Virus record (IMG/VR): IMGVR_UViG_3300021424_002361
Location: 1-26,288 of that record
DNA from: a virus
Reading direction: 5' to 3' (one strand)
DNA length: 26,288 nucleotides
Positions 955 to 26,288 of this stretch are shown one piece after another. The position numbers and the translations under genes were made by a program. The notes beneath the pieces were generated by a model. The model made no database searches. It had not been told where the DNA came from and was given only the letters and a program-made list of their open reading frames with translations. Position 1 is the first letter of the stretch. Every line of letters starts with the position of its first letter.

Positions 955-1358
955 ATATCAAATTTTGTATTTGGGTTTTCAACGTATCGAATATCATCCA
1001 ATTCTTGCGGATTATCTCTATAAATTCTGTAAGAATCATCTTCAAAATGTTCAGTAGATACTTCAAAAACAGTAGAATTATCCTCTAATGCTGTAAGTTG
1101 ATGTGGTTTTCCTTTTTCAATATAAACTACATCCCCAACATTTATTATCGTTCTGTTAAGTTTTGTATTTTCAATCCAATCAAATTGAAATTTACCAGAT
1201 TGTACATACCACGTTTCATTTTTAATCATGTGATAATGCATGGAAAAATTACTACTCATTTTTGGGAACACTAAGAGTTTTCCGCAATATTGTGGGTCAT
1301 TGTGTATCCATAATTCGTAACCCCAAATTTTTTTTACTTTTATTGGTTGTAAAATCAT
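951..1358 (-). CDS. Cupin, mannose-6-phosphate-isomerase-like
   Basis: A single-domain cupin of 135 residues. The N-terminal K-K-I-W-G-Y-E-L-W segment, the metal-ligand H-Y-H, a glutamate in NETWYV, and the late G-K-P-H-Q-L-T-A-L motif followed by E-V-S-T-E-H and D-D-S-Y-R match the cupin domain of type II mannose-6-phosphate isomerases and related sugar-phosphate isomerases. Known members bind a divalent metal and interconvert or epimerise phosphosugars. I chose the ATG at 1358 because it overlaps the TGA of iscA as ATGA; a longer reading frame from a TTG at 1385 would run deeper into iscA and adds residues the family does not need. With the GHMP kinase at 3278-4312 and the sugar epimerase at 14263-15132 it suggests activated-sugar synthesis. 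The substrate cannot be read from the sequence. Confidence 0.72.
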   Translation of the reverse strand: MILQPIKVKKIWGYELWIHNDPQYCGKLLVFPKMSSNFSMHYHMIKNETWYVQSGKFQFDWIENTKLNRTIINVGDVVYIEKGKPHQLTALEDNSTVFEVSTEHFEDDSYRIYRDNPQELDDIRYVENPNTKFDI

Positions 1359-1678
1359 AATGAAAAACTTTCTCCACATCCGCAAGTTCGGCTCGCGTTA
1401 GGATTTCTAAATTCAAATCCTTTACCATTTAAACCATCTGAAAAATTTAATTCAGTACCGAATAGGTATAGTAACGATTTATTATCTACTAAAATTTTTA
1501 CGCCCTTGTCTTCCGCAAGTGTATCGGTCGGATATTGTTCAGTATCAAATGAAAGTTCATAGGATAATCCACTACAACCGCCACCCTTTACTGCTACTCT
1601 TACAAATGGCGTTATACATCCACTTTCTTCTATAAGAGAATTTAATTTTTTTGCTGCTGTTTCTGTTACGGTAATCAT
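1355..1678 (-). CDS. iscA: IscA/HesB-type iron-sulfur carrier protein
   Basis: An A-type Fe-S carrier of 107 residues, the usual length. All three conserved cysteines are present: Cys35 in K-G-G-G-C-S-G-L-S-Y and Cys99/Cys101 in the C-terminal T-C-G-C-G-E-S-F. The segment around residues 63-90 (LVDNKSLLYL, then NFSDGLNGKGFEFRNPNA) is also standard for the family. The protein takes Fe-S clusters or iron from the scaffold IscU and passes them to apo-proteins in the cytoplasm. A phage-encoded IscU lies about 1.2 kb upstream in the same transcription unit, with an outer-membrane-like gene and a small gene in between. The ATG is two bases from the upstream stop. HesB-like genes are known in marine T4-like phages; having a full scaffold and carrier pair is less usual. 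Confidence 0.93.
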   Translation of the reverse strand: MITVTETAAKKLNSLIEESGCITPFVRVAVKGGGCSGLSYELSFDTEQYPTDTLAEDKGVKILVDNKSLLYLFGTELNFSDGLNGKGFEFRNPNASRTCGCGESFSL

Positions 1679-2781: not shown

Positions 2782-2853
2782 TTATTTTTTACACCAACCA
2801 AAACATACTTTTCCAAAAGTAAGTTTGCTAATTAGATTACAGATGTGTTTCAT
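2782..2853 (-). CDS. Possible 23-residue cysteine-containing peptide
   Basis: A short ATG-to-TAA frame overlapping the last 17 bases of iscU. It would encode a basic peptide beginning MKHICNLISKL and ending G-K-V-C-F-G-W-C-K-K, with three cysteines and a C-x-x-x-C pattern at the end. It fills the only real gap between iscU and the next gene, and the GTG start of that gene follows its stop by three bases, as expected if translation passes from one to the other. No family is recognised and 23 codons can occur by chance in AT-rich DNA. Treat it as a candidate only. Confidence 0.3.
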   Translation of the reverse strand: MKHICNLISKLTFGKVCFGWCKK

Positions 2854-3244
2854 AGTTTAATTTTTGAAGTCCTTGTTTTTCACGATAATCATTTATTGCC
2901 GCTTTTATAGCATCTTCGGCCAACACAGAGCAGTGAATTTTGACCGGTGGTAGATTCAGCTCTTCGACTAAATCCATATTATCAATTGTGACTGCCTCAT
3001 CAACACTTTTACCTTTTAACCATTCTGTTGCTAAAGATGATGCTGCGATTGCTGAACCACAACCAAAAGTTTTGAATTTTGCATCGGTAATGATATTATC
3101 ACTAACTTCAATTTGTAATCTCATTACGTCACCACACTCAGGTGCGCCCACCAAACCGGTGCCAACATTGGATTTTGATTTATCTAATGTTCCTACATTT
3201 TTAGGATTTTGATAATGGTCTAATACTTTATCTGAATATGCCAT
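2837..3244 (-). CDS. iscU: IscU/NifU-N iron-sulfur cluster scaffold
   Basis: A complete IscU scaffold of 135 residues. The three cluster-binding cysteines are present: Cys37 in G-A-P-E-C-G-D-V-M, Cys62 in F-G-C-G-S-A-I-A-A-S-S, and Cys105 in K-I-H-C-S-V-L-A-E-D-A-I. Asp39 and His104 are kept too. The chaperone recognition motif L-P-P-V-K, bound by HscA, is intact at residues 98-102, so the protein should be able to use the host HscA/HscB system. IscU builds Fe-S clusters with sulfur from the cysteine desulfurase IscS; no desulfurase is in this window, so the host enzyme presumably supplies sulfur. It is preceded by a 33-base gap with a promoter-like motif, suggesting a separate transcription start. 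IscA follows downstream at 1355-1678. Confidence 0.95.
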   Translation of the reverse strand: MAYSDKVLDHYQNPKNVGTLDKSKSNVGTGLVGAPECGDVMRLQIEVSDNIITDAKFKTFGCGSAIAASSLATEWLKGKSVDEAVTIDNMDLVEELNLPPVKIHCSVLAEDAIKAAINDYREKQGLQKLNYETHL

Positions 3245-7804: not shown

Positions 7805-8530
7805 TTATCTTAAAACTTTTTCTCTATCTGCAGGCGAGTTAATAAATTCATCCTCTATTTTTTTTATAAAAGAAAGTATTGCATATCTACCTATTCCACC
7901 TGTAACCTCTGTAACCATGTGTTGTATATCAAATGTTTGTAAATCTAAGATTGCAATTTGACCAAATGTTGGTATAACTTTTTCATTGTTATTTAAAATT
8001 AAACATCCACCATCTTTTTCATCGTAAGTTTCATTTAAATAAATTAATAATGCACATATTCTTCCCGTACCTCTTCCATCCGAATGATTTTGTAATCTAC
8101 AACCTACGTCATAATATGTAAACATTGGTGCAAAAAAAGAATATTCTTGTGTTTCATCAAAATCAAAAAAATATTTTACAATTTTTTTTACATAATTTTG
8201 AAACTTAACACTTTCACCTTTTTCGCCAAAGATTGGATTTAAATCAGAAAAAAACCACATTTGTTGAATTATAATTTTATCTTTATCTTTCAAAAACTCA
8301 TTCTTTTTTACACATGCGTTTTCATATGTAAGAAAATTATTCTTTATTTTCCAACCATTTGCACCATTAGTAGTATCAGCTTTTAAATAAGTAAAATATT
8401 TTTTTAAATTTTTTTCCTCATTACATTTATAGTTTAATAACCAATTATAAAATTCAGAGTCAAATTCTTTCAAATTAAAAGTAGTATAACCTTCTTTTTT
8501 TAATTTTTCTTTTGATATTTCTATTGTCAT
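7805..8530 (-). CDS. 2-oxoglutarate/Fe(II)-dependent oxygenase (prolyl-hydroxylase-like)
   Basis: A 241-residue 2OG-Fe(II) dioxygenase. The iron ligands are His149 and Asp151 in N-H-S-D-G-R and His204 in D-I-Q-H-M-V; Arg215 in G-G-I-G-R-Y-A-I-L-S-F is placed to bind the 2-oxoglutarate carboxylate. The strand C-A-L-L-I-Y-L-N-E-T-Y and the G-G-C-L-I-L turn before the second His are usual for the prolyl-4-hydroxylase branch (P4Hc). The N-terminal 100 residues are family-unspecific. Relatives hydroxylate proline, lysine or nucleobases; here the gene starts ATGA-coupled to a glycosyltransferase at the end of the glycan cassette, which fits hydroxylation of an acceptor or a sugar, though DNA or protein targets are open. 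Confidence 0.85.
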   Translation of the reverse strand: MTIEISKEKLKKEGYTTFNLKEFDSEFYNWLLNYKCNEEKNLKKYFTYLKADTTNGANGWKIKNNFLTYENACVKKNEFLKDKDKIIIQQMWFFSDLNPIFGEKGESVKFQNYVKKIVKYFFDFDETQEYSFFAPMFTYYDVGCRLQNHSDGRGTGRICALLIYLNETYDEKDGGCLILNNNEKVIPTFGQIAILDLQTFDIQHMVTEVTGGIGRYAILSFIKKIEDEFINSPADREKVLR

Positions 8531-9429
8531 TGAATTTTATTTATTTCGTCCTGAAACACAGAATATGATTGTTTTTTGAATTCCTCTTTTCTATCAATTC
8601 TTTTTATAATAGAATCATAATGTTTTCTATTTCTATAAATATAATTTTCACAAACAATATAGTTTTTTAATTTAAATTGATATATTTGTTCTCCATTTTG
8701 ATTTAGTTTTTCAATACCCCACATTAAAAAAGTATCGTCAGGTCCATATGCACCCATAGATTCGGGTAGTGGTATTCTATCTAATAGAGGTTTTGATAAA
8801 AGTGTAAACCAACCAGCTCCAAATTTTGTTTTTGGCTGACCTGGAACTTCATTAATTACTGTTAATAATTCTACGTCACCTATTTCACCACTTTCGGAAA
8901 ATGGATTATTATTTTTACAATAATCTAAAGGTTTATTTAGATAATTTTCATTTACTAAGCAATCCCAAGTAGTGTCCCAATATTTTACAATTTCTGGCGA
9001 AATAAAATATTTTTTTAAATTTGGGTCAGTTTCCGATAATCTATCTATACTTGCTTCCATATAGTAAAGAATCTTATCATCGAAACAAATATCAGTATCT
9101 AACCAGATAAAATGAGTAGCATCTTTACATTCTAAATGTGAATATCTTTTGGTTTGAAAAGCACCTATAATTTCGTCTCTGATTTGATAGGTAGCTTTTC
9201 CGGCCCAATCCGTTAGTGGTTTTAGTGAATTAAATCTATCAATAAAAAATTGTTTATCTATTTTAGAATTTTCCCAATCAAATAGGTAATCTGAAACTGA
9301 AAATGAAATGTAAAATTCATAATTCTTTCCATCTACAAATTTAGATGCTTTATTCAAATCTACCAATACTCTTTCCAAATCATCCAACTCATGTGGCATT
9401 ACGAATGATGTTATAACTATTTTTTTCAT
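8527..9429 (-). CDS. Glycosyltransferase-like protein, GT-A fold
   Basis: A 300-residue protein that starts with a Rossmann-like strand (K-K-I-V-I-T-S-F-V-M-P) and carries a metal-binding D-x-D in H-F-I-W-L-D-T-D-I-C-F. Further on it has G-A-G-W-F-T-L-L-S-K-P-L-L and A-Y-G-P-D-D-T-F-L-M-W-G, where the paired acids after a GW(F/W) block resemble the acceptor-site residues of GT-A enzymes such as family 2 or the galactosyltransferase-type C-terminal region. It should transfer a sugar from a nucleotide donor in the cytoplasm. The ATG overlaps the upstream gene's TGA and its own stop overlaps the oxygenase's start, so the three genes are coupled. Confidence 0.7.
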   Translation of the reverse strand: MKKIVITSFVMPHELDDLERVLVDLNKASKFVDGKNYEFYISFSVSDYLFDWENSKIDKQFFIDRFNSLKPLTDWAGKATYQIRDEIIGAFQTKRYSHLECKDATHFIWLDTDICFDDKILYYMEASIDRLSETDPNLKKYFISPEIVKYWDTTWDCLVNENYLNKPLDYCKNNNPFSESGEIGDVELLTVINEVPGQPKTKFGAGWFTLLSKPLLDRIPLPESMGAYGPDDTFLMWGIEKLNQNGEQIYQFKLKNYIVCENYIYRNRKHYDSIIKRIDRKEEFKKQSYSVFQDEINKIQ

Positions 9430-19375: not shown

Positions 19376-20227
19376 TTAATTTATTTTACCAAATAAATCT
19401 TCTATAATTGGTTGCAAATGTTCTGCCCATAGTTTTGAACCTAATTCATTTGGATGGCCTACATTATCTTTCAAATAAAAATTACTATCGTTATATTCAT
19501 TATCTCCTATATCAATCAAATATTGCTTATATTGAACATCTCTGATGTAATTTTTTATATTAAGTAAATATTCAATTATAGATTTATGGATTATAGGTCG
19601 GCCGTTATTTTTAAATTCACCAAAAGTTTGTAAATTTTCCATAACCTCTACTTTATGATTATCAATTTCCGCCTTACCAATTAAACCCCACCCATTTTTC
19701 GTTTTTTCTGGAATATTAGTGTTTATACCATCAAATATAAAATACTGATAATTATTTTTTTCACAAAAATTTATAAAATTAATTAAAGAATTAATTGTTA
19801 TAGATACGGCATGTGTAATGTTTATAAAAAATGGAGCCAATGAATATCTGTTTTCATAAATAAAATTATTATGATACACATTAAAATTCCAATTATCAAA
19901 ATGCTGCTCATCTATAAATGACATAGGTGTTAGGTGAGTATATTTTGGGTATCCATTTGTATCTGGAAAATCTAAACAAACTAAAGTTCTTAAAACTTCA
20001 CTTAACTGAATACCAAAAATAGCATTATCTGCTATTTCTTTATTCATAATAGAATATTGTATTGTATTATTTATAATATATTCGTTTCCGGCTCCACCCT
20101 TACCTAAATTTACCAATGTTAAATTATTATTTTTTGCAAAATAAGTTGCCCAAGACCCCTTTTCTTTTAAAATATGTCCTTCTGTAAAGGAACAACCGCT
20201 GGCTATTAGGTATTTTTTATTGAACAC
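19376..20227 (-). CDS. SGNH-hydrolase-like protein (first copy, GTG start)
   Basis: A 283-residue protein with an SGNH-like fold. Block I is S-G-C-S-F-T-E-G at about residues 10-17 (Ser as nucleophile), block II G-K-G-G-A-G-N-E-Y near 38-46 with both Gly and Asn, and block V near the C-terminus, D-N-V-G-H-P-N-E-L-G with Asp and His in the usual place. It starts at GTG, whose G is shared with the TAG of the clamp-loader small-subunit gene; no nearby ATG preserves the first strand. The gene is very AT-rich. In phages this fold is seen in tail spikes and in sugar O-acetyl hydrolases; here it is soluble and without a repeat domain. Confidence 0.65.
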   Translation of the reverse strand: MFNKKYLIASGCSFTEGHILKEKGSWATYFAKNNNLTLVNLGKGGAGNEYIINNTIQYSIMNKEIADNAIFGIQLSEVLRTLVCLDFPDTNGYPKYTHLTPMSFIDEQHFDNWNFNVYHNNFIYENRYSLAPFFINITHAVSITINSLINFINFCEKNNYQYFIFDGINTNIPEKTKNGWGLIGKAEIDNHKVEVMENLQTFGEFKNNGRPIIHKSIIEYLLNIKNYIRDVQYKQYLIDIGDNEYNDSNFYLKDNVGHPNELGSKLWAEHLQPIIEDLFGKIN

Positions 20228-20679
20228 TATATTTTTAATTTAAGCTTTGTGATTTGTTTTTTATCAGTACCATATTTTTCACAAATGTATTTAATATTTT
20301 CTCTACCTTCCCTAGTTGAATAAAGGACTTCAATATATTCCAATGCTTCTTTTTCTGAACATTGAAAATCTGTTTTAATTAAATCAATTAAAAAACTTTC
20401 ATATTTATCTGCAGATTTACCTTTGATATATTTTAAAAAGTATTTACCTTTTGGAATAACACTAATATACAACTTATACATTTCTTTAGGTTGTAAGGTT
20501 TGTGTTAAAGGAAGTAAGGTAGCAATCAACTCAACCCACTCTGGTTTCATAGAAAGAAAACGATTAATCATAAAATTACTCCATGATTTTAAATCCTCTT
20601 CAGAAAGTCGGTCAAAATATTTTGGGTCTTGCTCTGCAGTTATTGCATTTAAATGGTCAAATAATTTTTTTGCTGCCAT
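20227..20679 (-). CDS. Clamp-loader small subunit (T4 gp62-like)
   Basis: A 150-residue all-helical protein. Y-K-L-Y-I-S-V-I-P-K-G-K-Y-F-L-K-Y-I-K-G at about residues 68-87 matches the conserved A-V-P-R-G-K-x-Y-x-K-W region of T4 gp62, and the spacing of surrounding helices fits, although the protein is shorter than T4's 187 residues. Together with the ATPase at 20918-21865 it would form the loader that opens the sliding clamp and sets it on primer-template DNA. The order ATPase, zinc-ribbon protein, small subunit, with stop/start overlaps of one base, supports the call. Confidence 0.75.
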   Translation of the reverse strand: MAAKKLFDHLNAITAEQDPKYFDRLSEEDLKSWSNFMINRFLSMKPEWVELIATLLPLTQTLQPKEMYKLYISVIPKGKYFLKYIKGKSADKYESFLIDLIKTDFQCSEKEALEYIEVLYSTREGRENIKYICEKYGTDKKQITKLKLKI

Positions 20680-20918
20680 TATTCAATTACTTTATTATCT
20701 TTTAATTCGTCAGGAAGAAGGTCTTGTAAAGGTTTTCCACATTGTGTACAAAGATACATTTCGATAGGAAGTACACTATCTTTTGCTCCACCTGTGATTA
20801 GGCGGGATACTTTTCTAAATCTAAACCCTGGCATAAATGTATTATTACCGCATTCACAAAGCATTTCTCTTGCATCTGTTAATTTAAAATTCATAGGCAT
20901 TCCTTGTCCTTGCTCCAT
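20679..20918 (-). CDS. Small zinc-ribbon protein
   Basis: A 79-residue protein with two cysteine pairs, Cys21/Cys23 (C-E-C-G) and Cys57/Cys60 (C-T-Q-C-G), suited to bind one zinc ion. Between them is a basic segment, R-F-R-K-V-S-R. The C-terminus is acidic. It lies between the two clamp-loader genes with one-base overlaps at both ends, so it is made with them. The function is unknown; a DNA- or protein-binding accessory of the replisome or of late transcription is plausible. Confidence 0.65.
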   Translation of the reverse strand: MEQGQGMPMNFKLTDAREMLCECGNNTFMPGFRFRKVSRLITGGAKDSVLPIEMYLCTQCGKPLQDLLPDELKDNKVIE

Positions 20919-21865
20919 TATTTTATAATATTTAAAATTTGAATAATTGTACTCATAAAAACTATTTCTTTATCTACTACTAATGCATCTTTGGATAAAC
21001 CATCAGCAATAGTTAGGATTACATTTGCAGTATTACCTACTGCATACTCATCTACTTTATCGTATAACATAGAATACATTTCGGAATAATCGTTTAAGTG
21101 ATTATCTGCAACTGCCTGTCTAATCTTCATAAACAAATTACGTTTATCATCGTTTGATTTTAATAATTCAATCAATTTAGTCTGAAAATTTGATTCAACC
21201 ATTACTTTATGGTCTACTTTTAATTCTCCTTTTGCGGATTGTAATTGGCAAGTGTTTAGGACTCTACGAATATCTGGATAATATGAATTAATTATATCTG
21301 CAACATTTTTAATATCATATTTAATCTTTTCTCCATCCAATATCTTACTAACTTGCATCGCCACACCCTTTTTAGTTGGCGGAGTAATTGCAAATGATTG
21401 ACAACGGCTTTGAATAGGGTCAATAATCTTCTCAATATAATTACAAGTCAAAATAAATCGGCAATGCTTACTAAATGTTTCCATTAGGTTACGAAGGATT
21501 GCCTGTGCGTTTGGAGTCATATAATCAAACTCATCAAGGATAATCACTTTAAATCCTGCGAAACCTACTGAGGATGCGAAGTTCTTTACCTTTGTTCTTA
21601 CGGTGTCCACATTGTTTTCATCAGATGCGTTGATAATCATACTATCACACTTAATTGTATTTACGATAAGTTTTGCAAGTGTGGTTTTACCCGTACCCGC
21701 TTTACCATAAAACAATAGATGTGGAATATCATTAGTGTCCAAATATTGTTGGATTGTTTCTTTTACTTGCTCATTTCCTACATAATCTGCAAGTGTTTGT
21801 GGACGATATTTCTCTACCCACAAAGTATGTTCTCTTTTGCTTATATCGTTTGCGAAAAAACTCAT
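20918..21865 (-). CDS. Clamp-loader ATPase subunit (T4 gp44-like)
   Basis: A 315-residue AAA+ ATPase close to T4 gp44 (319 residues). W-V-E-K-Y-R-P is at 16-22, Walker A G-K-A-G-T-G-K-T at 54-61, Walker B I-L-D-E-F-D at 109-114, sensor 1 T-C-N at 140-142, and the S-R-C arginine finger at 153-155. It hydrolyses ATP to load the sliding clamp (23088-23801) with the small subunit (20227-20679). The ATG is one base from the dUTPase stop, and its stop overlaps the next start. Confidence 0.95.
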   Translation of the reverse strand: MSFFANDISKREHTLWVEKYRPQTLADYVGNEQVKETIQQYLDTNDIPHLLFYGKAGTGKTTLAKLIVNTIKCDSMIINASDENNVDTVRTKVKNFASSVGFAGFKVIILDEFDYMTPNAQAILRNLMETFSKHCRFILTCNYIEKIIDPIQSRCQSFAITPPTKKGVAMQVSKILDGEKIKYDIKNVADIINSYYPDIRRVLNTCQLQSAKGELKVDHKVMVESNFQTKLIELLKSNDDKRNLFMKIRQAVADNHLNDYSEMYSMLYDKVDEYAVGNTANVILTIADGLSKDALVVDKEIVFMSTIIQILNIIK

Positions 21866-23087: not shown

Positions 23088-23801
23088 TTAATTTGAAATT
23101 TCTACTAAATAATACTTACATACAAAGTCATCGATTTGGAATTCAACGTGTGATAAACCATCGGTTGATACTTTTAATTTTGCATTAGTTGCTTCTTTGT
23201 TTGCAGTAAGAATTTCTTTCAGATATTTTGCTGAAAATGAAATTGGTTTAACTTCGGTTGTAAATCCTTTAATCGCTGTAAAGGTGACTCTATTTGTTGA
23301 TATTGAAGAATAACCGATTGCTAACTTTAAATCATCACCTTCAGTAAAGATTGTAAATGTATCAATATCACTCAATGCACCTTTTGCCTTAATAAATTTA
23401 TCCACCATTTGGGATGTCATATCAATTTCAATACCAAAATCAGGTAATGCTTTTAAATCTGGTACGGGTGGAATTACACCCAAATCGGCCAACTGATACG
23501 ATGTTTCGGTATCATCTGAATTTAATTTTAGTGTAACTGCTTTATCACCTGTTTTATCAACTTTCAATGTAATATCGTTATCTAATACACCAATCATATT
23601 TTTGAGTAATGATGTTGTATAGATACCAACATTAAATGGTTTAGAAGTAAATGCATTAAATTCTACTTCACCTAATAGGGTTTTATCATCAGAAATAAAT
23701 CTTACTGATAATTTGGTTCCTTCTGCGTTCCATGCTACGGATTCAATAAGTCCTCCCAAAGAATACTTTTGAATAAATCTTAATAAATTGTTTTTGTTCA
23801 T
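23088..23801 (-). CDS. Sliding clamp (T4 gp45-like)
   Basis: A 237-residue protein with the length and fold pattern of T4 gp45 (228 residues): two domains of alternating strands with hydrophobic helices, Y-T-T-S-L-L-K-N-M-I-G-V-L-D in the first and M-V-D-K-F-I-K-A-K-G-A-L-S in the second, which align with the corresponding T4 L-N-G-F-L-G-I-L and L-L-R-V-S-R helices. Identity to T4 is low, so the call also rests on position among polymerase and loader genes. Three subunits would form a ring around DNA and hold the polymerase. It has a 38-base upstream gap with a promoter candidate, allowing separate expression. Confidence 0.85.
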   Translation of the reverse strand: MNKNNLLRFIQKYSLGGLIESVAWNAEGTKLSVRFISDDKTLLGEVEFNAFTSKPFNVGIYTTSLLKNMIGVLDNDITLKVDKTGDKAVTLKLNSDDTETSYQLADLGVIPPVPDLKALPDFGIEIDMTSQMVDKFIKAKGALSDIDTFTIFTEGDDLKLAIGYSSISTNRVTFTAIKGFTTEVKPISFSAKYLKEILTANKEATNAKLKVSTDGLSHVEFQIDDFVCKYYLVEISN

Positions 23802-23823
23802 TTGTTTTAAATTTTATGTTTGT

Positions 23824-23854
23824 TAAATATACGAAATTTTTATGAGAATGCAAA
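23824..23854 (-). promoter_or_regulatory. Putative Bacteroidetes-type promoter for the sliding clamp
   Basis: On the minus strand TTTG (23851-23854) is followed by exactly 19 bases and then TATATTTA (23824-23831). This matches the Bacteroidetes TTTG-N19-TAnnTTTG consensus except for the final base of the -7 element. The -33 part lies inside the last codons of the methyltransferase. The clamp ATG is 22 bases below, behind an A-rich leader. Confidence 0.45.
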
Positions 23855-24769
23855 AAACTTTTTAACTTTTTTATCCATTTCATATTCAATTTCTTTACAA
23901 TATGAAGGAATAATATATTCTCCTGGTTTACGAAATACCAAAATATATTCATGAGTTTTTGGCACATATCTTTTACATGCAGCCTGATATTGTGTTAATG
24001 TTGCAAATGGTGATATATTTTCCATAATAATAATATCGTGATGTGACCAACCCGCTTTCTTAAATGATTGAATTGTATCTCCGTGAAAGTTCAATAGATT
24101 TCCATTATCTCTAAAATCTGCTACTACCCAAACACAAAACGAACCGGCTTTTGCTACTCTAAAACAATTTTCAACACATAAATCTATTTCATTCATAAAA
24201 TCGGAATATGATTTATTATCACTTAATTGTCCTTCAACACTTTCATATTTTTCAATACTATAATATGGTGGACATGTAAAAATTAAGTCTGAAAAATTGT
24301 CTTCCGTTTTACTCAATTTTGTTCCATCACCTAAATATAATGTTGGTGATATACCTAACCTATCAAAGTGTGCTAATGCTCTTCTATGTGTGTTTGGTGT
24401 AATCTCATAACCATAATACTCTCTACCTAATTTTGTAGTTACAACTGCACGGGTCACTCTACCTGCAAATGGGTCAACAACTCTTGCACCGGGCATTGAC
24501 CAATATCTAATAATATTTTCCGCAACTCCGGCGTGAAACTCTGACATCTTTTGTGGTCCGCCGCCCGCTCCTTTAACATATCCACCATTTATTTTGCGGA
24601 TATCAATCTCGCCATCATCAAAATAAGCATCGTTCCACTTTTCTTTACTTTCTTTTGTTGGTTTGATAATAGAAAGTGGTAAAAAACCAAATTGGTCTTT
24701 TACATTTATATCCTCACGTATTGGTAAGATTTTTGATTGTTTTGTATAATGGTCTAAACTTCTACTCAT
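23840..24769 (-). CDS. DNA methyltransferase with polymerase-like C-terminal peptide
   Basis: A 309-residue N4-cytosine/N6-adenine-type DNA methyltransferase. Motif I is D-P-F-A-G at residues 99-103; the catalytic motif IV follows as T-C-P-P-Y-Y at 165-170 (C-P-P-Y in place of the usual N/D/S-P-P-Y), with S-I-E-K-Y-E after it; H-E-Y-I-L-V-F-R-K near the end is usual for the group. Order I before IV is that of alpha or gamma classes. No restriction enzyme is adjacent, so it probably protects or marks phage DNA. The C-terminus K-K-F-F-A-F-S nearly repeats the polymerase's last residues K-K-F-F-A-F, suggesting a sliding-clamp-binding peptide. It begins two bases after the polymerase stop. Confidence 0.85.
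   Translation of the reverse strand: MSRSLDHYTKQSKILPIREDINVKDQFGFLPLSIIKPTKESKEKWNDAYFDDGEIDIRKINGGYVKGAGGGPQKMSEFHAGVAENIIRYWSMPGARVVDPFAGRVTRAVVTTKLGREYYGYEITPNTHRRALAHFDRLGISPTLYLGDGTKLSKTEDNFSDLIFTCPPYYSIEKYESVEGQLSDNKSYSDFMNEIDLCVENCFRVAKAGSFCVWVVADFRDNGNLLNFHGDTIQSFKKAGWSHHDIIIMENISPFATLTQYQAACKRYVPKTHEYILVFRKPGEYIIPSYCKEIEYEMDKKVKKFFAFS
23847..23864 (-). repeat. 18-bp direct repeat, copy at methyltransferase 3' end
   Basis: AATGCAAAAAACTTTTTA (plus strand) occurs here and identically at 24776-24793. Both copies encode the K-K-F-F-A-F end of a protein. Confidence 0.8.
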
Positions 24770-24771
24770 AA

Positions 24772-26288
24772 CTAAAATGCAAAAAACTTTTTAGCGGTTT
24801 GTGCCTCTACTGATGCTTTCTCCCACTTTAACGCATTGTAGAAATCATCAATTTTATTTTCTAATTCTGCTTTATAGATTTCATCTCTATCAATATAGGT
24901 TTCAATAAAATCCGTAATCTCTTTAGGGTCATTGTAATCCTTAAACGCCACTCCTTCTAATCCTAATGGATTTGTTTTAAGATATACCCACTTTACTTTA
25001 TCACCATCTCTAATTGGTTCGTGCTTATATGGACAATCAAAGAATTTTAGTAATCGGTTATATGCTATTCCGGCTTTGACGTGTGCGGGTGTTCCTTTCT
25101 CAAATTCTGTAATTGCTTTTCCTTTTTGCCAATTACCACTATCATATTTACTCAATTCTTTAATTGCTCCACCCTTTGCAATTTTATTAACTGGTAGGTT
25201 TATCATATCTTTTTTAAAATCTAATAAGGATTTGTCTATATCAGCATTTGTTTTACCCATAAGAATGTCCTTTAAGGTTCTTGCCATAAAGTCCTGAAAT
25301 GCTTTGGGGAATGAACTTCTTACAACATCCAACCCTTTTACGTCCAACTTATCACAAGGAATGCCATTTTTCAAAATCATCCATTGTGCATATCGCTTCT
25401 TTGCCACCCAAAACCCTGCTTTACTAATATACTCTTTCTTAATTTCAAAGCGATGTTTCTCTTTTGGTATAAAGAAAAATCTCTCTGCTAAAATATCATA
25501 GAATTTATTTAAGAATGATTGTGTTTCATCTGCAATTATATTTACTTCTTGTGCCATTCTGTTTTCATCAAATTCTTTATATTCTGCGTATCTATGTTTT
25601 ACTAAAGGTTCTGCCATCATATAAATTGAATCGGTATCAATATACACATTGTAATCCTCTTTTGTTCCTAATTCTTTCCAATATTTTATATTTGCCATTT
25701 CCGCCGTTTTCTTAATCACTACCTGTCCGGTCAGAGTCACCGCTTCTGCATTATCTACATCATAAAAACGAAATGCGGGCAAACCCAATACACCATACAT
25801 TGAGTTTAAAAGAATTTTCTGCACATGCTGTCTTTTACCATAAAACTCATACTGGTCTGTATTTCCTTCTTCACCATATTTCTTTTCCAACTTTCTATAC
25901 TCAACTCTTTTTTTAAACCACATATCAAGTATATCTGCAATTAGACCTGGCTTATCCTGATTATATAATACCCCATTTGCTGCTACACCTAAATTACTAT
26001 CTTTAATTACTTCCTCTAATTCTGTTCGGGTATATTCATATGTTTCGTTTTTACCAATTATCTTATATGTGCCGGCATCTTCACCCTTAATCCAAGCTTC
26101 GGCATCCCAATTATTAATCTTACCAATCTTTGTTTCTGGCGATATATTAAGTGTCATAATAATTGAGGGATATAGTGATGTCAAATCCAAATCATAAATC
26201 CAATCATACTTACCAACGATGGGCTCTTTTACATATGCACCAATGAACTTCTCCTCATCATTATCACGTAGTGCCTGCATTCTTTCCT
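24772..26288 (-). CDS. DNA polymerase, family B (T4 gp43-like), C-terminal part
   Basis: The C-terminal 500-odd residues of a family B replicative polymerase; the frame stays open to the right edge, so the exonuclease domain and true start lie outside. Counting from the ATG at 26280, motif A is D-L-D-L-T-S-L-Y-P-S at 30-39 (catalytic Asp32), motif B K-I-L-L-N-S-M-Y-G at 155-163, and motif C Y-I-D-T-D-S at 213-218 with Asp215 and Asp217. It ends A-Q-T-A-K-K-F-F-A-F, in the place where T4 and RB69 polymerases carry the hydrophobic clamp-binding tail. It copies the phage genome with the clamp and loader encoded downstream. Confidence 0.95.
   Translation of the reverse strand, partial: ERMQALRDNDEEKFIGAYVKEPIVGKYDWIYDLDLTSLYPSIIMTLNISPETKIGKINNWDAEAWIKGEDAGTYKIIGKNETYEYTRTELEEVIKDSNLGVAANGVLYNQDKPGLIADILDMWFKKRVEYRKLEKKYGEEGNTDQYEFYGKRQHVQKILLNSMYGVLGLPAFRFYDVDNAEAVTLTGQVVIKKTAEMANIKYWKELGTKEDYNVYIDTDSIYMMAEPLVKHRYAEYKEFDENRMAQEVNIIADETQSFLNKFYDILAERFFFIPKEKHRFEIKKEYISKAGFWVAKKRYAQWMILKNGIPCDKLDVKGLDVVRSSFPKAFQDFMARTLKDILMGKTNADIDKSLLDFKKDMINLPVNKIAKGGAIKELSKYDSGNWQKGKAITEFEKGTPAHVKAGIAYNRLLKFFDCPYKHEPIRDGDKVKWVYLKTNPLGLEGVAFKDYNDPKEITDFIETYIDRDEIYKAELENKIDDFYNALKWEKASVEAQTAKKFFAF
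24776..24793 (-). repeat. 18-bp direct repeat, copy at polymerase 3' end
   Basis: Identical to 23847-23864 on the same strand and in the same reading phase relative to the K-K-F-F-A-F codons. Confidence 0.8.

Follow-up and report, generated by a model that had tools for sequence, protein, structure and literature searches.

The late-transcription coactivator gp33 of phage T4 ends in NTLDFLL, gp55 in SLDFLYEAND and the DNA polymerase gp43 in ASLDFLFG. These three C-termini are similar, interchangeable epitopes that bind the sliding clamp, that of gp55 following a divergent linker (PMC2988020), and T4 DNA ligase also carries such a clamp-binding motif (PMC7892883). The statement in an earlier note that the polymerase tail of T4 and RB69 is the peptide that docks in the clamp agrees with the literature, in which the RB69 peptide occupies a hydrophobic clamp pocket (PMC3012046) and the gp43 tail is one of the T4 epitopes (PMC2988020). 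The same face of the clamp is also bound by the gp44/62 clamp loader (PMC2988020).

Coupling of DNA modification to the replication machinery has been described in several settings. T4 alpha-glucosyltransferase binds the clamp gp45 (Sommer et al. 2004). A later study, which cites this work, confirmed the interaction by pull-down, but found that glucosylation is mainly determined by something other than clamp binding (PMC13216743). In eukaryotes, the methyltransferase DNMT1 is brought to new DNA via a PCNA-binding peptide (PMC9690074). The plasmid methyltransferases M.EcoGIX and M.BceJIII are a case of replication-associated methylation by a mobile element; they differ from the system proposed here in being tied to Pol I and single-strand specific, and the available portion of that report describes no clamp motif for them (PMC7736820).

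The earlier note had also stated that no phage system with a clamp-bound methyltransferase was known to it. In the literature searched, no phage methyltransferase was found to be described with a clamp-binding tail like that of the polymerase. The statement nevertheless needs correcting, as recruitment of a DNA-modifying enzyme by a phage clamp is already known from the T4 alpha-glucosyltransferase. That enzyme resembles the methyltransferase proposed here in being a DNA-modifying enzyme recruited by the clamp and proposed to act with replication; it differs in its chemistry and in its last residues, KEQFDIITK, which lack the motif.

A polymerase-type tail on a methyltransferase beside a predicted sliding clamp

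The window, i.e. the whole stretch of DNA that was analysed, is a 26,288-base record in IMG/VR of a virus of bacteria. A T4-type family B DNA polymerase (PF00136; phrog_262, E 1.3e-108) occupies positions 24772–26288 on the minus strand, with its 5′ part beyond the window. Its open reading frame (ORF) at 24772–26280, open to 26286, has the C-terminal end VEAQTAKKFFAF, and a complete 851-aa copy is present in locus L001. The next gene (23840–24769, minus strand), which starts 2 bases beyond the end of the polymerase ORF, is predicted to encode a 309-aa DNA methyltransferase (MTase) of PF01555 N6_N4_Mtase (E 2.2e-21; 77.3 bits against a cutoff of 26.7). The product shows the N6/N4 methylase fold and contains the DPFAG and CPPY motifs (SAM/catalytic). 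Its C-terminal end is YEMDKKVKKFFAFS.

The earlier note placed the clamp gene next downstream, and structure prediction supports this assignment. The 237-aa product of 23088–23801 (minus strand) had no Pfam match in the profile search; its AlphaFold model (mean pLDDT 92.2) matched PCNA clamps with Z about 20, T4 gp45 (6drt) with Z 19.8 (215 residues aligned at rmsd 2.5) and RB69 gp45 (1b77) with Z 19.3. Sequence similarity to gp45 was too weak to map pocket residues. The window phage is thus predicted to encode a clamp of the PCNA/gp45 fold. Genes for the gp44-like large subunit (20918–21865, minus strand; phrog_168, E 6.2e-83) and the gp62-like small subunit (20227–20679, minus strand; PF16790, phrog_225) of a clamp loader are also present. 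The interval between polymerase and clamp (23802–24771 in the window) is an insertion hot spot, which across relatives is either empty (36–102 bp) or filled by a methyltransferase or by a ~248-aa SGNH-like protein starting M..LKFW.

As the earlier note had observed, the polymerase ends in KKFFAF and the MTase in KKFFAFS (TAKKFFAF and KVKKFFAFS with the preceding residues), and the assignment of the two proteins to PF00136/phrog_262 and PF01555, respectively, confirmed that they are otherwise unrelated. The polymerase tail lies at 24775–24792 (minus strand), and relatives keep it as [KQE][KQ]FF[ASTV]F. The clamp-binding-like tail of the MTase lies at 23843–23863 (minus strand), in which F305 and F306 are invariant. 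Residues 292–304, immediately before FF, form a divergent linker in the alignment of homologues, and similarity to solved methylases (e.g. 2zie) stops at residue 291. The structure model of the MTase (pLDDT 56) was too poor to judge packing of the tail. On composition alone, about 3e-6 occurrences of an exact KKFFAF at the end of a window gene would be expected, and about 9e-5 of a loose version. The sharing of the tail is not chance. The match extends to the DNA as an 18-bp exact direct repeat, TAAAAAGTTTTTTGCATT, at 24776–24793 in the polymerase gene and 23847–23864 in the MTase gene (both minus strand), which raises the rival explanation of a simple duplication (see below).

Like the clamp clients gp43, gp55, gp33 and ligase of T4, the MTases end, behind a linker, in a short hydrophobic motif that contains aromatic residues, and functionally unrelated proteins of one phage share it. 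The present case, recognised at the sequence level, differs from T4 in that the client would be a methyltransferase and in that the window-type motif is basic (KK; AKKFFAF), whereas the T4 motifs are acidic (SLDFLFG). The hxxFF part of the canonical PIP box (Qxxhxxaa) is present in the MTase tails tested, while no Gln was found three residues before the hydrophobic residue in the tails of the window, L094, L095, L099, L174 and L101–L105. The MTase tail does not match the bacterial beta-clamp motif QL(S/D)LF.

Conservation of the tail among close homologues

Scans of IMG/VR yielded MTase homologues with 59–73% identity to the window MTase, and in every complete one FF followed by 0–3 residues forms the end of the protein. 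All 12 distinct nearest homologues, from window-type and related loci, have FF near the C-terminus, and the ~12 residues ahead of it show no conservation. The tails read KKFFAFS in the window, KKFFAL in the L065 group, QNFFSF in L003, LNEFFG in L094, LNKFFK in L095, LDKFF in L099 and LNQFF[AEGI] in L004 and L101–L105. Where seen, the polymerase tails of the same phages are AKKFFSF (L065, L095), AEKFFSF (L003), AEQFFSF (L094) and AKKFFVF (L099). A terminal motif matching the polymerase of the same phage, set off by a divergent linker, is therefore a conserved property of these MTases. Absence of the tail from close homologues, which would have spoken against the reading of the earlier note, was not observed: all complete homologues that were examined, with identities as low as 47% (see next section), carry it. 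Co-variation of the MTase tail with the polymerase tail beyond the FF core, which the earlier note had suggested looking for, was not significant (permutation P = 0.10 for 7 phages and 0.11 for 18 distinct pairs).

At least five positions of the MTase gene were seen: in the interval from polymerase to clamp, upstream of the clamp, 3–5 kb upstream of the polymerase, adjoining gp32 and, in small phages, adjoining terminase. In L065, where the gene has the same position as in the window, the tail codons of polymerase and MTase differ (AAAAAGTTTTTCAGTTTT and AAAAAATTCTTTGCACTA, respectively), indicating that the peptide is kept, and not the DNA alone. Among 26 protein families with at least eight members in window-type loci, F[FW] within the C-terminal 7 residues was found only in the polymerase (75/75), the MTase (12/12) and a Mom-like family (59%). 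Window-type phages yielded no match to PF16805, the gp33 profile. In the small phages (L004, L101–L105) the MTase lies beside terminase genes and ends in KLNQFF plus one residue; no T4-type clamp was found in these records, which are possibly incomplete, and the partner of the tail there is perhaps the host clamp.

A database search found no close relatives of these MTases in named phages. The nearest polymerase among named phages is that of Microcystis phage Mel-JY01 (47.7% identity), with the tail NLSKFFNFK. Not all phage methyltransferases have the tail: the methylase-like proteins of Mel-JY01, within the 44 kb examined, lack it, and T4 Dam ends in EVYIFN.

The motif in a second methyltransferase family and in gp33

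A genome scan identified a homologue with 47% identity to the window MTase on G028:C79. This contig of a T4-like phage is 121 kb long and was binned in a Sphingobacteriales MAG. The gene of the homologue (MTase A) follows those of gp59 and gp32 homologues, and the protein ends in ESLEQFFS behind a different linker; the polymerase of the contig ends in ASLDSFFG. The same contig encodes a gp33 homologue (PF16805, E 1.5e-19) ending in SITSFFSD, and a second methyltransferase (MTase B; 478 aa, PF01555 barely above cutoff) ending in NTLESFFG. The families of MTase A and MTase B are only distantly related. No clamp gene was found in G028:C79. The T4 counterpart of the gp33 homologue is a proven clamp client, and a gp33 carrying the same motif as the MTases was seen in C79-type phages only.

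Two viral scans recovered 65 loci for MTase A and at least 600 for MTase B, 80 of which were kept; this type of T4-like phage is represented in about 65 viral contigs. All 56 complete C-termini of MTase A contain LxxFF (e.g. ESLEQFFK, SSLTDFFE, NDLGAFFN), and 78 of the 79 complete C-termini among the 80 kept from the at least 600 MTase B loci contain Lxx[FW][FL] (e.g. STLESFF, SLESFFG, TTLDNFF, QLDEFFV, STLDEFLA). On viral contigs, gp33 ends in [LIV]xxF[FY] in 55/55 cases, and polymerases carry the motif in 44/45, as SL/TLxxFF in 43/45. The polymerase exceptions are a broken ORF and L318, which ends in ASLMSFM; the MTase B of L318 likewise departs (TLEKWLV). FF itself is present in 56/56 MTase A, 73/79 MTase B, 49/55 gp33 and 43/45 polymerase C-termini. 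The tails of T4 gp43, gp55 and gp33 are close to MTase B tails such as STLDEFLA and NTLESFFG.

A family-wise scan of C79-type loci found the motif to be near-universal in MTase B (60/61), polymerase (38/39), MTase A (38/38) and gp33 (22/22), as well as in a gp26-like baseplate protein, named from resemblance alone (23/23), and, in the form PxPxFMS, in one further family (18/22). Beyond these six families, none with a near-universal motif was found in the scan. The gp26-like proteins (G028:C79 10217, minus strand, and homologues) end in LEGIQNFF or similar in all 23 cases, which calls for caution, as an ending that resembles the clamp motif can arise otherwise.

Interpretation and alternative explanations

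As the T4 tails of gp33 and gp43 are proven clamp binders, the sequence evidence and the T4 analogy strongly suggest that the MTases are sliding-clamp clients. We consider it likely, with good confidence, that the MTase tail is a T4-type clamp motif and that the clamp-carried enzyme would methylate phage DNA during or just after replication. This supports the reading of the earlier note, in which the MTase too binds the clamp and would methylate DNA at the fork. The purpose would probably be protection from restriction, the usual role of such methyltransferases. V-KK-FF-A-F-S would be the clamp-binding motif, joined to the catalytic domain by the divergent linker. The clamp encoded next door would carry the polymerase via the equivalent polymerase tail, and the MTase would ride another subunit of the same trimeric ring or, alternatively, stay on clamps left behind the fork; either way, it would be placed on newly made duplex DNA. 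Phages with such MTases, including many ocean phages, would then probably methylate their DNA from the clamp while it is copied.

The 18-bp exact repeat at the two 3′ ends and the location of the MTase in an insertion hot spot would both fit an origin of the matching tails as a DNA by-product, in which the 3′ end of the polymerase gene was duplicated by insertion of the MTase, or copied by gene conversion, and is functionless in the MTase. This explanation is largely refuted, because the tail is conserved in MTases that do not adjoin the polymerase (L003, L094, L095, L099 and L174), and we regard it as very unlikely. The occurrence of the gene in at least five contexts, together with the differing codons in L065, means that the family cannot be explained by local duplication of DNA. 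The 18-bp identity may stem from recent gene conversion in the lineage of the window, but the family-wide tail is not accounted for in this way.

The tail might instead be intrinsic to the MTase, serving in dimerisation, packing or target recognition, with its likeness to the polymerase tail a convergence. Retention of the tail in small phages in which no T4-type clamp was detected would be in keeping with such a role, and the MTase model is too poor to exclude packing. Against it, the tail is absent from the distant homologues phage G gp294, Funu2 and Mae-JY30, the linker lacks conservation, the tail lies beyond the part that resembles solved methylases, and the same motif recurs in a distantly related methyltransferase family and in gp33; we regard an intrinsic role as unlikely. 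The tail could also bind another partner common to polymerase, gp33 and MTases, such as the clamp loader or a single-strand binding protein, or the host beta clamp in the small phages. The gp44/62 loader shares the clamp face (PMC2988020), so that replisome partners overlap, and the small phages keep LNQFF; however, for two of these tails the T4 and RB69 counterparts are known to bind the clamp directly (PMC2988020, PMC3012046, PMC7892883), and we give a different partner very little probability.

Beyond this locus, we see about an even chance that many T4-like phages of aquatic bacteria practise replication-coupled DNA modification, with the clamp as a tool belt for at least two MTase families and perhaps for Mom-like and other modifying enzymes. 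If MTases do bind the clamp, the known phage clamp clients (polymerase, late transcription factors, ligase, alpha-glucosyltransferase) would be extended to DNA methyltransferases, in convergence with DNMT1 on PCNA, a cytosine-5 enzyme of another class that is a cellular analogue with no relationship implied. With this system one could test directly whether protection of phage DNA is timed to its replication, and the motif provides a simple sequence rule to find clamp clients in uncultured T4-like phages.

Other candidate tail carriers

Mom-like DNA-modification proteins (PF25680; L136:7700-8500 and homologues, 54 sequences) encoded near the polymerase end in KFW in 32 of the 54 (e.g. ELASKFW, EILNNFW), and some of these genomes also encode a paralogue without the tail; the KFW proteins are possibly another clamp client. 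A PD-(D/E)XK nuclease of G028:C58 (94792; L179:989-1510), which adjoins a polymerase with the tail ASLEDFFG, ends in GTLDEFLG and is likewise a possible client. In L089, the gene immediately upstream of the polymerase (8339-8863) encodes a GNAT-like protein with the ending SKKFFTCS. Asparagine-synthase-like proteins, also encoded upstream of the polymerase (L085:1388-2842), end in NLNKFF[EK]YA or IKKFWDA; these endings may represent the shared tail or coincidence.

Croceibacter phage P2559S (L168:2012-3370) carries a distant MTase (25% identity) ending in EDLEFFGLD, which resembles both the MTase tail and the bacterial beta-clamp motif. Two unrelated proteins encoded just upstream of the polymerase in L096 (1101-2327 and 2329-3447) start with MKFWDTG and MTFWDT, respectively, and this N-terminal FW motif has counterparts in L094 and L099. 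The window also encodes an IscU scaffold (2837–3244, minus strand; TIGR01999 above cutoff) and an IscA-type protein (1355–1678, minus strand; TIGR00049 above cutoff) of iron-sulfur assembly, and a 140-aa protein directly after the polymerase in the C79 phage looks similar to the iron-sulfur assembly protein(s) of the window.
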